From the NCBI GenBank assembly GCA_903926205.1, contig CAIYID010000031.1:1-64000 (forward strand): a stretch of 64,000 nucleotides of DNA, read 5' to 3'. Shown here piece by piece: positions 53,881 to 61,037 of the stretch. This DNA comes from an uncultured Bdellovibrionales bacterium (lineage in GTDB: Bacteria > Bdellovibrionota > Bdellovibrionia > Bdellovibrionales > Bdellovibrionaceae). The notes below the pieces were generated by a model. The model made no database searches and had not been told where the DNA came from. It saw only the letters and a program-made list of their open reading frames with translations. The number at the start of each line of letters is the position of its first letter. The first letter of the stretch is position 1. A program made the position numbers and the translations under genes.

Positions 53881-56115
53881 GTGTCTGTGGTTATTAGCCC
53901 TAGTTGTAATTTGATTGCGGTGATTGGTGGAAAAGGTGGCGTTGGAAAAAGCGTCTTTGCCGCTAATTTTGCAGCGACTTTAATGCTGGAGCTGCGCACA
54001 CAAGTTCTTTTGATCGACGCGGATGCGAAATCTTGTGGTGACCAAAATGTTATTCTAGGAATTCGTCCAAACAAAACCGTTTCTGAAGTTGCCAATTTTA
54101 CAGGCTCTTTAAATCCACAAGCCCTCACTCAGCTCATTACAAATCATCCGTCTGGTCTCGGTTTTATTGGTGCCGTTCGTGGGCCCGAAGAAACTCTTAA
54201 GGTCAATCCGGACTCTTTCCTTAAACAACTTGAATTCCTCAGTCGGAGTTACAAATTTATTGTGGTTGATTTGGGAAATGATTTACAACCGCTGCAACAT
54301 GCTCTTCTGCAAGAAGCTACTGCCGCAATTATTATCACGGTTCCCGAAGTTCTGGTGATCAATCAAACTCAGCGCCTCATTCAAGAACTGCTGACGGCGA
54401 CCTACCCGATTGATATGTTTCAGCTCGTCATCAACAAGGTGTCCGGCCAAGGTCTGGCGCCACAAATGATTGCTCAAACACTGAGGATGCAACCTTTGGG
54501 CGCAATTCCGTTGGATGACGTAACAACGGCAGGCTCGTTGCAAAGATCGACGCCTTTTGTTTTATCCAACAGCAAAGCACCCGTAACCGCCGCTTACTAT
54601 GATGTCGCTCGCAAATTAACTGGCGGAGTTTTGCAACGCCTAAAATCCTTGCAAAAGCCCCAAGCCATTGTTTCGCCAAATTCAAGTAGTGGTGACTCTG
54701 GCGGCTCTCAATCCTTTTCCGATGGAATTGATCCAAGAACCGCGTTAAAAATCCGCGTGCATGTTGAGTTGATAAAAACGATGGATTTAAAAAAAGGGAT
54801 CACCGACACTCAAGGAGACAAGGGAAAAGAAGTTGCCCTCCGTCAAAAAACTCAAGCACAAATCACGACGATTGTAGATAAAGAATCGCCGGGGATGGCT
54901 CGTGAAGATCGTTCGAAAGTGATCAAAGAGGTTTTAGATGAAGCCTTGGGACTTGGACCCTTGGAAGATCTTTTGGCTGATAACTCCGTGACTGAGATCA
55001 TGGTTAATGGCTACAAAAAAATCTTTGTGGAAAAAAGTGGTAAGGTACAAATTTCACCCGTCACTTTCACTTCAAATCTACATTTGCGTAATGTGATCGA
55101 GCGAATCGTCACTCCCCTTGGACGACGTATTGATGAAAAAACTCCCTATGTGGATGCTCGATTAAAAGACGGAAGTCGGGTCAATGCCGTGATCGAGCCT
55201 CTTTCCATTGATGGCCCCGCCGTCACCATTCGAAAATTTAAAAAGGGTGGGATCACTCCAGAAAAATATATTGAATTTGGATCAATCACTCGACCGATGG
55301 TCGATTTTTTAAAAATTTGCGTGGAAAACGGTTTAAACATTGTTGTTTCCGGCGGTACGGGCTCTGGTAAAACAAGTTTACTCAATATGATTTCAAATTA
55401 TATTCCCTCTCATGAACGAATTGTTACTGTTGAGGACGCGGCCGAGCTACAAATGATGCAAGAACATGTGGTTCGCTTAGAAACTCGTCCCGCCAACATG
55501 GAAGGCACTGGCGCGGTCACCATTCGTGACTTAGTCCGAAACGCCTTGCGTATGCGTCCAGATCGAATCGTCGTCGGCGAAACTCGCGATGGCGCAGCTT
55601 TGGATATGCTTCAAGCAATGAACACCGGTCATGATGGCTCTATGACCACCACTCATGCAAATAGTCCACGCGAATGCATTGGACGTTTGGAAACACTTTG
55701 CCTAATGTCGGGCATCGAACTTCCGACAAAAGCCATTCGAGAGCAAATTGCCTCAGCCGTGAATTTGATCGTGCAAATTCAACGTCTTTCGGATGGAAGT
55801 CGTAAAATTACGAGCATCACAGAGGTTTGTGGAATGCAGGGAGAGACCGTGACTCTACAAGAAATTTTTCGTTTCAAGGAAACTGGTTTCGACAAAAATC
55901 GAAAAATTCAAGGGCAATTTCAGGCCTGCGGAATGATTCCAACTTTTATTGAGGAGCTTGAACAAAAAGGGGTCATCATACCGCGTGACATGTTCTCGAA
56001 TGATCCCAAAGCCACCGCAACCGGCCTAACTAAAGAAGCGACGAAGATCGCACCTGCGATGCCGGGAAATATGGCTAACCTAATGAAGAAAACTGGTACG
56101 GGCGGCAAAACATGA
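53881..56115 (+). CDS. CpaE-CpaF fusion: MinD-like ATPase joined to Tad assembly ATPase
   Basis: Protein of 744 aa. Residues 1-255 are a MinD/CpaE (TadZ) type ATPase with deviant Walker A GKGGVGKS (17-24) and [11 protein letters not shown], lacking the receiver-like domain of CpaE. A Ser/Gly-rich linker (about 262-284) follows. Residues 290-715 are a CpaF/TadA motor with GGTGSGKTS (491-499), [15 protein letters not shown] (561-567) and the His box [13 protein letters not shown] (582-594). GTG at 53881 is the start; GTG at 53887 is equally possible. Joining both would tether polar localisation and pilus extrusion in one polypeptide. A chimera from a frameshift is excluded because the frame is continuous. 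Confidence 0.9.
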
Positions 56116-57021: not shown

Positions 57022-58686
57022 ATGAAACAATTGATAGCACTTATTTTGACGGCTTTATCATGCTCCGTTTTGTTTTCAAATTTCGCACATGCCATCGTCG
57101 ATATGCGAAATGCCAACTACTCCAACACGTGGATTGATCTAGAGCTCACTGGCTCTGGATACGAATTGAAGGTTTCTCGAACCTACAATAGTCGCACGCT
57201 GTTCAATGGAATCTTTGGCTTTGGTTGGTGTTCAGATTACGAAACAAAACTGGATGTAACTCCTGAGGGAAATTTAAAACTGACTGAGTGCGGAGCCGGT
57301 CAGGAAAATTATTATTTTCCTAGGGAATTTAATCGAAAAGAAATCAATAAAACTGTTGGGCAAATTATCACAGCTCTCCGTGCTCAACGAAAAACTGACG
57401 AAAAAACTTTAAAAATTCTTGAGACTGATCTTCCGACAAATCACAATCTTCGCGCCAAATACGCTTTTGATTTGAAAATTTCAGTTTCCGTGAAAGAAGG
57501 CTCACAGTTTTATGCCAATTCCCGTGAAGTGGAAAATGTGGTCTTTGCTAAGGGTTATTACACCAGAAATTTAGTGGATGGCTCTTCTCAGCGATTCACC
57601 AAAGAAGGTCGCATGACTCATCTTTATGATAAAAACGGAAACTACATAAAAATAGATTATGATAAAGATGTGATCAAAGAGGTTTCTGATAATAATGGAC
57701 GACGGCTTAATTTTAAATTTTACACCAATCACAAAGTGAAATCGATCAGTGGTCCAAATAATTTGATGGTTGAATACAAATTTGAGAATATGGATGACCT
57801 CACTTACGTGAAAAACTCTTGGAACAACGTTTATAATTATCAATATGATGATATGCACGATTTAGTGAAGGCCACTTTTCCAGACGGCACCTTTGTAGCA
57901 TTGAGCTATGATAAAAAACACAATTGGGTGACGAGCTTTACTGACCGGGAAAAATGCAAAGAAGAGTATCTCTATGAAAACTCTCCCGATGATCCTAAAA
58001 ATCACTACTCGTCCATTGTGAAGAAAACCTGTGGCAAAGAGGTTGTGACAGATTCGAAATATGAATTCTGGCACAAGGTGCGTGCTGATGGTGAGAAATA
58101 CTTGTGGCGTGTGGGCTCTGTCATCAACGGAAATTCCACAGAAGTCACCTATCATGAAACTTTTGGAAAGCCCGTTTCCATTCGTAAAAATGGCGAACTT
58201 TTTTCTTTCGAATACCTCGCGAACGGTCAAGTGAAACAAAAAGCAACAAAGTATGCAACGCTGACTTACGATTACTCGAAAGAGAACAATAAAGTTTCCT
58301 CTGTGGTGGCCGTGTCTAAGAGTGATAAAGGCAAAGTCATGAAAACTCTAAAAACGGAATTTAAATATGATGGCAAAGGAAACTTAATTTGGGCGTCTAA
58401 CTCTGATGGTCAACGGGTCGAAATGAGTTACGATCCAAAAGGTCGAATTGCAAGCATCAAAGACCAAGCAAAAAAATTCGTGAAAATTGAATACGATGAA
58501 AAATCTGGTAAACCGGCGGTCGTCAGTCGACCAGGCTTAGGCACCATTCACGTCACTTATAAAACTAGTGGTGAAATTGACAAAGTAAACAGCAATGAGG
58601 GCCCATCAGTAGCAATGCAAGTGGCAAGCACCTTTAATAACTTGCTAGAGATTATTTCTCCGGCAACAGCAGAAGTTTATAACTAA
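57022..58686 (+). CDS. secreted YD-repeat protein, Bd0109-like hit locus partner
   Basis: Protein of 554 aa with a signal peptide (1-24, FAHA-IV). It has a DUF6531-like N-terminal domain (GYELKVSRTYNSRTLFNGIFGFGWCSDYETKL, about 45-76), then Rhs/YD-type repeats (RMTHLYDKNGNYIKIDYD, VEYKFENMDDLTYVKNSWNNVYNYQYDDMHDLVKATFPDGT, FKYDGKGNLIWASNSDGQRVEMSYDPKGRI). No toxin domain follows, so it is a structural or surface protein. In Bdellovibrio bacteriovorus bd0109 is of this kind and sits between tad genes and bd0108, the same order as here. GAGAGG precedes the ATG. Confidence 0.82.
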   Translation: MKQLIALILTALSCSVLFSNFAHAIVDMRNANYSNTWIDLELTGSGYELKVSRTYNSRTLFNGIFGFGWCSDYETKLDVTPEGNLKLTECGAGQENYYFPREFNRKEINKTVGQIITALRAQRKTDEKTLKILETDLPTNHNLRAKYAFDLKISVSVKEGSQFYANSREVENVVFAKGYYTRNLVDGSSQRFTKEGRMTHLYDKNGNYIKIDYDKDVIKEVSDNNGRRLNFKFYTNHKVKSISGPNNLMVEYKFENMDDLTYVKNSWNNVYNYQYDDMHDLVKATFPDGTFVALSYDKKHNWVTSFTDREKCKEEYLYENSPDDPKNHYSSIVKKTCGKEVVTDSKYEFWHKVRADGEKYLWRVGSVINGNSTEVTYHETFGKPVSIRKNGELFSFEYLANGQVKQKATKYATLTYDYSKENNKVSSVVAVSKSDKGKVMKTLKTEFKYDGKGNLIWASNSDGQRVEMSYDPKGRIASIKDQAKKFVKIEYDEKSGKPAVVSRPGLGTIHVTYKTSGEIDKVNSNEGPSVAMQVASTFNNLLEIISPATAEVYN

Positions 58687-58700
58687 TGGAGGGGCTCAAT

Positions 58701-58964
58701 ATGAAAAAATTTTTATCTACTCTTTTAATTATTGGAGCCTTTGTTTCTTCAGTGGCGCTGGGTCAATTGGTTCAGCAGACGGAAGATCCGAATAAAACCC
58801 AGCATGATGGCGCTAACGTGACTGCCCTCGGAGCCAAGTCAGAAAATAATAGCGCGTTTTGTGATTGCAGAACGACACAGGTAGATAGGAACGAAAACCC
58901 TAAGTCCGACCTTTCAGGAGGCACGGAAACTCATACAGCACCTTCTAAAGAAGGTGAACGATAA
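58701..58964 (+). CDS. small secreted protein, candidate homologue of the hit gene (bd0108)
   Basis: Protein of 87 aa: signal peptide (1-21, VALG-QL), then a polar, probably disordered mature part with a Cys-x-Cys pair (54, 56) and a charged Ser/Thr/Glu tail. GGAGG lies upstream of the ATG at 58701. The call rests on position (right after the YD-repeat gene at the end of a tad cluster), small size and export, matching bd0108 of the B. bacteriovorus host-interaction locus; I cannot align it. Mutations in bd0108 are linked to prey-independent growth. A CACCTTC-TAAA-GAAGGTG hairpin lies at 58939-58956 inside the 3' end of the coding region. Confidence 0.72.
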   Translation: MKKFLSTLLIIGAFVSSVALGQLVQQTEDPNKTQHDGANVTALGAKSENNSAFCDCRTTQVDRNENPKSDLSGGTETHTAPSKEGER

Positions 58965-59376: not shown

Positions 59377-60417
59377 ATGTTCAAAAAAGAAACACAAGCG
59401 CTCTTAGTTTTAATTTCATTATCTTTGATCGGATGCGCGCCGACTGGAAAGAGTAGTGGGTCCTCGACAAGCGTATCCAGCAGTAGCCAGATACAACAGG
59501 CGATAAACTATGCCTCAGGAAATGCTTTCCTACAGAACTACACCTCTAATGGTGTCACGCCAAGTCCATCTGCACCAGTGTGTTCGGCTTCTCAAGTGCA
59601 AAGAGAAATCACGATGGTACAAGATATGATTTCAGAAATTCAGAAATATGCGCCAGCTGGCTCGTCTTTCGCACAGTGCACTCTTGATCTTCTCAATCAA
59701 CGCGAAACAGACTTGCAAACACTTCTGGCTCAAGTCAATAGTGCCAACGGTAGTTGTGGAGCAATGATGCGAGCAATTGAGGTTGGTCAGTCGCTTCCTT
59801 CTTCTTGCCAAACGTTAACAAACAATCAATCTGGATCAAGTCAGAGTCCAACTTCAGGAGCCCCTAGTTCTGGTGGTTACCATCATGGCAATAGTGGTTC
59901 AGGAAGCTCATCGGGAGGAACTCCTCCAGCTCCTCCAACTCCACCAGCTCCTGGTTCAGGAAGCTCATCAGGTTCAGGAAGCTCATCGGGCTCAGGAAGT
60001 TCATCTGGAGCGGCTCATCACGTGCCGCCATCTCCTCCAGCTCCGGGCTCAGGAAGTTCATCAGGTTCAGGAAGTTCATCAGGCTCAGCTCCGACGCCTC
60101 CTGCTCGAACTCCAACTCCTGCTCCTACTCCTGCTCCTGCTCCTACTCCCGCTCCTGCTCCAACCCCCGCACCAACTCCAGTTCCACCATCAACGACGTC
60201 TGTTACTTATACCCAAGTTAAGGCATTCCTTGGCCCCGCTTGCACAGGCTGCCACTCAAACATGGGCTCTTACAGTGGTGTTATGAACTATGTCTCTGCA
60301 GGAAATCCAAACTCGAGCTCTCTCTACACTAAGGCAGTAGGAGGAATGGGTGGATTATCTAGCACAGAGTTAAGTGATCTTTCTCAATGGATTAGAGAAG
60401 GAGCTCTGAACAACTGA
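59377..60417 (+). CDS. lipoprotein with Ser/Gly and Pro/Ala linkers and a cytochrome c-type haem motif
   Basis: Protein of 346 aa. The lipobox is LSLIGC near residue 20. A helical domain with cysteine pairs covers about 60-150. A low-complexity segment of repeated GSGSSS and PPAPP units (about 165-245) is followed by a PTPAPA tract (about 250-275). The C-terminal domain has CTGCH (289-293), the covalent haem c motif, in a fold ending LSDLSQWIREGALNN like planctomycete-type cytochrome c domains. GGGGGG precedes the chosen ATG; an ATG 7 codons earlier is in frame. The repeats reveal themselves as many spurious ORFs in other frames. Confidence 0.8.
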   Translation: MFKKETQALLVLISLSLIGCAPTGKSSGSSTSVSSSSQIQQAINYASGNAFLQNYTSNGVTPSPSAPVCSASQVQREITMVQDMISEIQKYAPAGSSFAQCTLDLLNQRETDLQTLLAQVNSANGSCGAMMRAIEVGQSLPSSCQTLTNNQSGSSQSPTSGAPSSGGYHHGNSGSGSSSGGTPPAPPTPPAPGSGSSSGSGSSSGSGSSSGAAHHVPPSPPAPGSGSSSGSGSSSGSAPTPPARTPTPAPTPAPAPTPAPAPTPAPTPVPPSTTSVTYTQVKAFLGPACTGCHSNMGSYSGVMNYVSAGNPNSSSLYTKAVGGMGGLSSTELSDLSQWIREGALNN

Positions 60418-60462: not shown

Positions 60463-60493
60463 AACCCCGCCACTGAGCGGGGTTATTTTTTTC
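60463..60493 (+). terminator. rho-independent terminator
   Basis: AACCCCGC-CACTGA-GCGGGGTT is a perfect 8-bp stem followed by A and seven T residues, 46 bp after the haem lipoprotein stop. Confidence 0.93.
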
Positions 60494-60812: not shown

Positions 60813-61037
60813 ATGAAAAATTTGAGTTTAATGACACTGGCTGTAGGAATGTTGCTATCTAACTTAGCAATGGCGACTGGTTCGGGCGACTGCCCTAAAC
60901 ATGACCAAAGTGGACGCGATGAAAAGCCTAAAGTGCAACTCGCAAAGATAGTCAATCCCAAGCCCAACATTGTTGCTGTGAAACCAGTCAGCCCATCCAA
61001 TGGTGGTGTTGATAGCTTTGAAGAGTACCGTGAATAA
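60813..61037 (+). CDS. tiny secreted protein of unknown function
   Basis: Protein of 74 aa: signal peptide (1-21, LAMA-TG), then a polar mature part with one cysteine (GSGDCPKH) and a Lys/Pro/Val segment, ending DSFEEYRE. AAAGGAG lies upstream of the ATG at 60813; an in-frame ATG ten codons earlier lacks one. Its size, export and upstream TGAGAC motifs recall the hit-type protein 2 kb upstream, but no sequence homology is visible. Confidence 0.65.
   Translation: MKNLSLMTLAVGMLLSNLAMATGSGDCPKHDQSGRDEKPKVQLAKIVNPKPNIVAVKPVSPSNGGVDSFEEYRE

Follow-up and report, generated by a model that had tools for sequence, protein, structure and literature searches.

A predicted lipoprotein with a C-terminal c-type cytochrome domain on a long repeat-rich linker, encoded beside hit/Tad-type genes of an uncultured Bdellovibrionales bacterium

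The stretch of DNA analysed here, referred to as the window, comprises 64,000 nucleotides of contig CAIYID010000031.1 from an uncultured Bdellovibrionales bacterium. The open reading frame at positions 59377-60417 of its forward strand encodes, from an ATG start, a protein of 346 amino acids; a reverse-strand reading of the same interval was excluded, the minus frame being full of stops. The N terminus, MFKKETQALLVLISLSLIGC, was recognized by eye as a signal peptide with the lipobox and Cys+1 of bacterial lipoproteins. Residues 1-19 (59377-59433) end in LIG and are followed by the predicted lipidated cysteine, Cys20 (59434-59436), and the translation thus bears out the lipobox (LIGC20) described in an earlier note on this DNA. 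The residue at +2 is alanine, and by the E. coli rules, in which outer-membrane sorting is read from the +2 residue, the lipoprotein is most likely destined for the outer membrane. Downstream, a terminator-like hairpin followed by a T run (60463-60484, forward strand) is a weak call, one having been found against 2.3 expected by chance. Literature searches revealed no publication that deals with this protein or with tethered haem lipoproteins in Bdellovibrio, and PMC11495043 has no bearing on the subject.

The gene lies just after hit-type genes, as had been noted earlier. Upstream of it are Tad-type genes for a secretin, a ParA-T2SSE fusion and a T2SSF protein, then the gene for an RHS/YD-repeat protein resembling Bd0109 (57025-58686, forward strand; matches in 39 of 39 relatives) and that for a small secreted protein in the place of Bd0108 (58704-58964, forward strand), which was assigned by position and has no sequence match to families. 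The fusion (53881-56115) is a 744-residue open reading frame that joins a ParA/CbiA-type domain to a T2SSE ATPase, in a TadZ-TadA-like arrangement. In strain HD100, Bd0108 and Bd0109 were reported to interact and to affect both pilus output and prey-independent growth (PMC3818213).

The N-terminal region of the mature lipoprotein (residues 35-149; 59479-59823, forward strand) is predicted to be helical and contains four cysteines, at positions 69, 101, 127 and 144, with no CxxCH motif. A full-length single-sequence model was poor (pLDDT 48.4) and served solely for hints of helices in this region, which it placed at residues 71-91 and 97-121 with pLDDT of about 73-80. When 140 genomes of the order were searched with the region, 22 gave matches at E <= 0.1, the window's own genome included; the best match outside that genome (E 0.001) was partial, covering about 60 residues, and the others were weaker, so the region is regarded as an orphan. 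The N-terminal part likewise had no match at E <= 1 among PDB sequences.

A low-complexity linker with GSGSSS and PTPAPA-type repeats follows at residues 150-275 (59824-60201, forward strand), delimited by composition, Tandem Repeats Finder and a linker rule. Its strict extent is residues 176-276 (101 amino acids), and looser ends widen it to about 150-275 (126 residues), which agrees with the long flexible linker of about 110 residues described earlier. Residues 150-280 include 36 Ser, 31 Pro, 21 Gly, 14 Thr and 14 Ala. At the DNA level, Tandem Repeats Finder reported three 18-bp in-frame arrays, at 59953-60005 (2.9 copies, 91%), 60046-60088 (2.4 copies, 92%) and 60098-60170 (4.1 copies, 87%); because these repeats are in frame, a change of linker length by slippage would preserve the reading frame. 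Under the strict rule this linker was the longest among 12 proteins, the other 11 having linkers of 2 to 91 residues, although these comparators are paralogues and distant homologues picked from the translated relatives and include no isolates. GSGSSS occurred in the window protein only among the 12. A single-haem relative (L008, 505-1848) also has a non-haem N-terminal half, followed by a 91-residue linker of PTPVPTPI-type repeats.

The C-terminal 71 residues (276-346; 60202-60414, forward strand) are, by homology traced through profiles, alignments and a structural model, a class I c-type cytochrome domain. Its haem-attachment motif, CTGCH, occupies exactly the residues 289-293 (60241-60255) that had been given for it. 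A CxxCH motif appeared in 0.22% of shuffles of the 346-residue protein. A profile of 28 relatives, with the window row removed, gave 56.4 bits to the window protein with residues 276-346 aligned, while 1000 shuffled versions of the domain region scored 10.2 bits at most; a chance CxxCH was thereby ruled out. Met324 (60346-60348), the candidate distal axial ligand, falls on the distal-Met column of the profile built without the window row.

Two alignments describe the conservation of this domain. In the first (A1), the two cysteines and the histidine of the motif, Trp-Ile and G-A-x-N-N are invariant, and by eye Met occupies the distal position in all 13 distinct relatives. The second (A2; 29 rows) comprises the window protein and 28 of 80 loci from named genomes, chosen for spread among the 38 translated; here C, C, H, W and I are invariant, and Met was seen by eye in 24 of the 28 relatives, being absent from L068, L073, L092 and L095. 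In L068, L073 and L074, which are Bacteroidota and Helicobacteraceae relatives, His-Gly replaces the distal Met-Pro, which suggests a ligand swap.

Searched against solved structures, the A2 profile matched FoxE (1.9e-16), cytochrome c6 (4e-7) and PccH (4rlr; 7.7e-4), together with many other solved cytochromes c. The value for FoxE (5mab) is a total to which both of its haem domains contribute, whereas the window protein has one CxxCH; it thus falls outside the FoxE-type iron oxidases, and the likeness carries no evidence of iron oxidation by this protein. The model of the domain has a pLDDT of 95.2 and a pTM of 0.84, and in a comparison with 15 chains by VIA-align its best counterpart was PccH (Z 7.1, rmsd 2.0 Å, 67 aligned residues; next row Z 3.4), a score that does not settle the matter by itself, the domain being small and helical. 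The absence of FoxE from the 10 VIA-align rows has no weight against the FoxE likeness. PccH, from Geobacter sulfurreducens, carries a single haem, as is predicted for the window protein, and the modelled fold of the domain resembles it, at 24% identity over 67 residues; its chain has 126 residues against 73 in the domain model, and it is not known to have a linker comparable to that of the window protein. Several direct searches were negative: Foldseek with the domain model gave no hit in the PDB at E <= 0.001, phmmer with the domain alone found nothing at E <= 1 among PDB sequences, and a Pfam scan of the window protein returned no family at E <= 10. Cytochrome_CBB3 (PF13442), with a cut-off of 27, did not match the window protein, and the relatives L005 and L029 scored 35 and 43.3.

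The Met loop of the domain is shortened, with GGMGG in place of MPxG, and ligation by Met324 is thus likely but less sure. The same loop, together with the absence of a Pfam match and an orphan N-terminal part without a haem motif, could be taken to mean that CTGCH and the loop are remnants in a structural or adhesive lipoprotein that has lost its haem. We consider this improbable, as the CxxCH, the Met, the WIxxGAxNN ending and the remainder of the domain are intact and haem maturation genes are present in the window's genome. In that genome, CcsA was found above the cut-off at two loci, with ResB matches just upstream of both, and a search for CcmE found none, which indicates System II rather than System I and answers the earlier suggestion to check for cytochrome c maturation genes. 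The domain probably binds haem, and the earlier reading of a haem c domain is supported by homology, by the distal Met position and by the ResB/CcsA genes.

Domains of this kind are widespread in the family. At least one A2 match at E <= 0.001 was present in 62 of 66 family genomes, with four in the window's own, where the match to the window protein is by construction, its row being part of A2 (this applies also to the search of hit loci described below). Of 100 confirmed loci, 80 were kept, and the named relatives include Bdellovibrionota MAGs, Bacteroidota, Planctomycetota, Myxococcota and others. From the search that gave the 43 non-self matches mentioned below, 19 loci were covered (L005-L019 and L029-L032), L020-L028 being omitted because their matches were mostly to the linker. 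Among 11 related proteins, nine have two CxxCH motifs and two have one. No full-length orthologue was found, since the 43 non-self matches span the linker and the C-terminal part, the earliest starting at residue 138. The family's two-haem c-type lipoproteins (for example L005, L006 and L029) resemble the window protein in their lipoprotein-like start, Pro/Thr/Ala linker and C-terminal domain ending in WIxxGAxNN, but they have another haem domain in the N-terminal half, where the window protein has the four-Cys region without CxxCH; the window protein also has the GSGSSS tract in addition. The LIC11213 family lipoprotein model NF047812 has a C-terminal domain of this kind, to which residues 287-343 align, although the window protein scored 25.9 bits where the cut-off is 100 and has no full-length match to it. 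The literature on LIC11213 yielded one screen for vaccine antigens. Tethered c-type cytochrome domains are thus a standing component of the envelope of Bdellovibrio-type bacteria, as the 62 of 66 family genomes indicate, with N-terminal halves and leashes that vary widely. The window protein is an unusual-looking but largely ordinary member of this common kind, and its distinctive features are the orphan four-Cys N-terminal region without CxxCH and the GSGSSS linker.

The lipobox and the very long linker would suit a lipoprotein flipped to the outer face, with the linker presenting the haem domain outside the cell for extracellular electron exchange, as the earlier note proposed. The best structural match, PccH, comes from Geobacter, a genus known for the electrode exchange with which PccH is associated. 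OmcF of Geobacter, an outer-membrane cytochrome, is a monohaem His-Met protein with a predicted lipid anchor, features also predicted for the window protein, but it has 104 residues and no long linker (PMC6971198). Display at the surface is nevertheless rather unlikely. The protein has a single haem motif, and the window's genome gave no match to the MtrB/PioB-type porin (PF11854), the only porin type searched, in a search whose control gave a weak match in 1 of 14. Moreover Laz, the lipid-modified azurin of N. gonorrhoeae for which a role with a surface enzyme had been suggested, turned out to lie on the periplasmic side despite its lipid anchor, and a lipid anchor alone is thus poor evidence of display; an opposite report on Laz of N. 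meningitidis is cited in the same paper (PMC6277709). The term 'surface' in the earlier note is unsupported, because the sequence gives no indication of whether the protein faces outwards or into the periplasm. Extracellular electron or oxygen sensing, also proposed there, is not borne out, given the lack of a sensor or signalling domain, the one haem motif and the missing MtrB/PioB-type porin match.

The explanation judged best, and held to be probable with real room for doubt, is that the protein is a lipid-anchored monohaem c-type cytochrome acting as a tethered electron shuttle in the periplasm. The periplasmic side is favoured because there is no sign of display, a respiratory oxidase is present and the Laz analogue faces the periplasm. 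After export the chain would receive its lipid at Cys20 and most likely reach the outer membrane, and one haem would be attached to CTGCH by ResB/CcsA, its iron presumably bound by His293 and Met324. The four-Cys region near the membrane would probably form a helical module, held by disulfides, that serves as a spacer or docking part, and the disordered linker would give the haem domain a wide range of movement, most likely within the periplasm. There it would take electrons from one redox protein and hand them to another, in a respiratory or detoxifying shuttle. The window's genome contains a gene for a COX1-family haem-copper oxidase, and at one of the two CcsA loci the CcsA gene is followed by that for a multi-CxxCH protein (L063, 2350-2934); both are possible partners of the tethered domain. 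A comparable design occurs in Neisseria, where a low-complexity linker rich in Ala, Ser and Pro likewise bears a haem domain in c5 and, as the third domain, in CcoP. These Neisseria proteins are multi-haem, with CcoP an oxidase subunit, and are not known to have a four-Cys domain. Their linkers have been discussed as possibly bridging the periplasmic gap (PMC2924362).

The neighbourhood invites a further reading, in which the haem domain responds to oxygen or redox conditions and relays this to the hit/Tad pilus system encoded beside it. The gene adjoins Bd0108/Bd0109-type and Tad genes, and Bd0108 contains a C56-C59 disulfide (CXXC) for which a possible redox role was suggested by its authors (PMC4267844). 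This is very unlikely, as the protein has no signalling domain and the hit loci of 10 relatives, the other same-genus genome included, all lacked the haem domain in a profile search. C-type domains with His/Met ligation typically carry electrons. In that other same-genus genome, G027, which is 54% complete, the matching flanks lie about 0.5 kb apart, compared with about 2.05 kb in the window. An insertion by a mobile element was considered, but none was seen, and the extra stretch may be a gain here or a loss in G027. The lipoprotein gene is thus not a conserved hit component, and, with none of the 10 relatives' hit loci carrying it, its position there argues only weakly for a role in hit functions. 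More specifically, a lineage-specific redox lipoprotein recruited to the hit locus might sense envelope redox through its tethered haem domain and its four-Cys membrane-proximal domain, set the thiol state of the neighbouring Bd0108-type CxC protein and thereby adjust both the output of pili and the switch in predatory growth, but the chance of this is very slight indeed. Were the position at the hit locus functional, envelope redox would be tied to predation; the comparative evidence speaks against it, and the tethered electron carrier is retained as the preferred reading.

Other small proteins of the hit loci deserve mention. In most of the 10 relatives' loci, inspection showed a small secreted protein directly after the RHS gene. 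The copy in the window (58704-58964) is of a fast-varying kind that a protein search left unlinked across genera. It was compared with those at the Bd0108 position in L053 (1926-2207), L055, L056, L057, L058 and L060-L062, and most copies retain a close cysteine pair (CDC, CVDC, CPEC or CPTC). Six CxxCH stretches were found in the 10 relatives' loci, one of them at hit genes: the CNGCH of L060, which lies within the Bd0108-position protein of genome G038 (1941-2342), a protein without a cytochrome domain. At 60816-61037 the window encodes another tiny secreted protein, which has a CP-x-AG-x-NPK-like motif; several relatives have a counterpart in the same position, as in L053 (2417-2593) and L057 (1102-1287).
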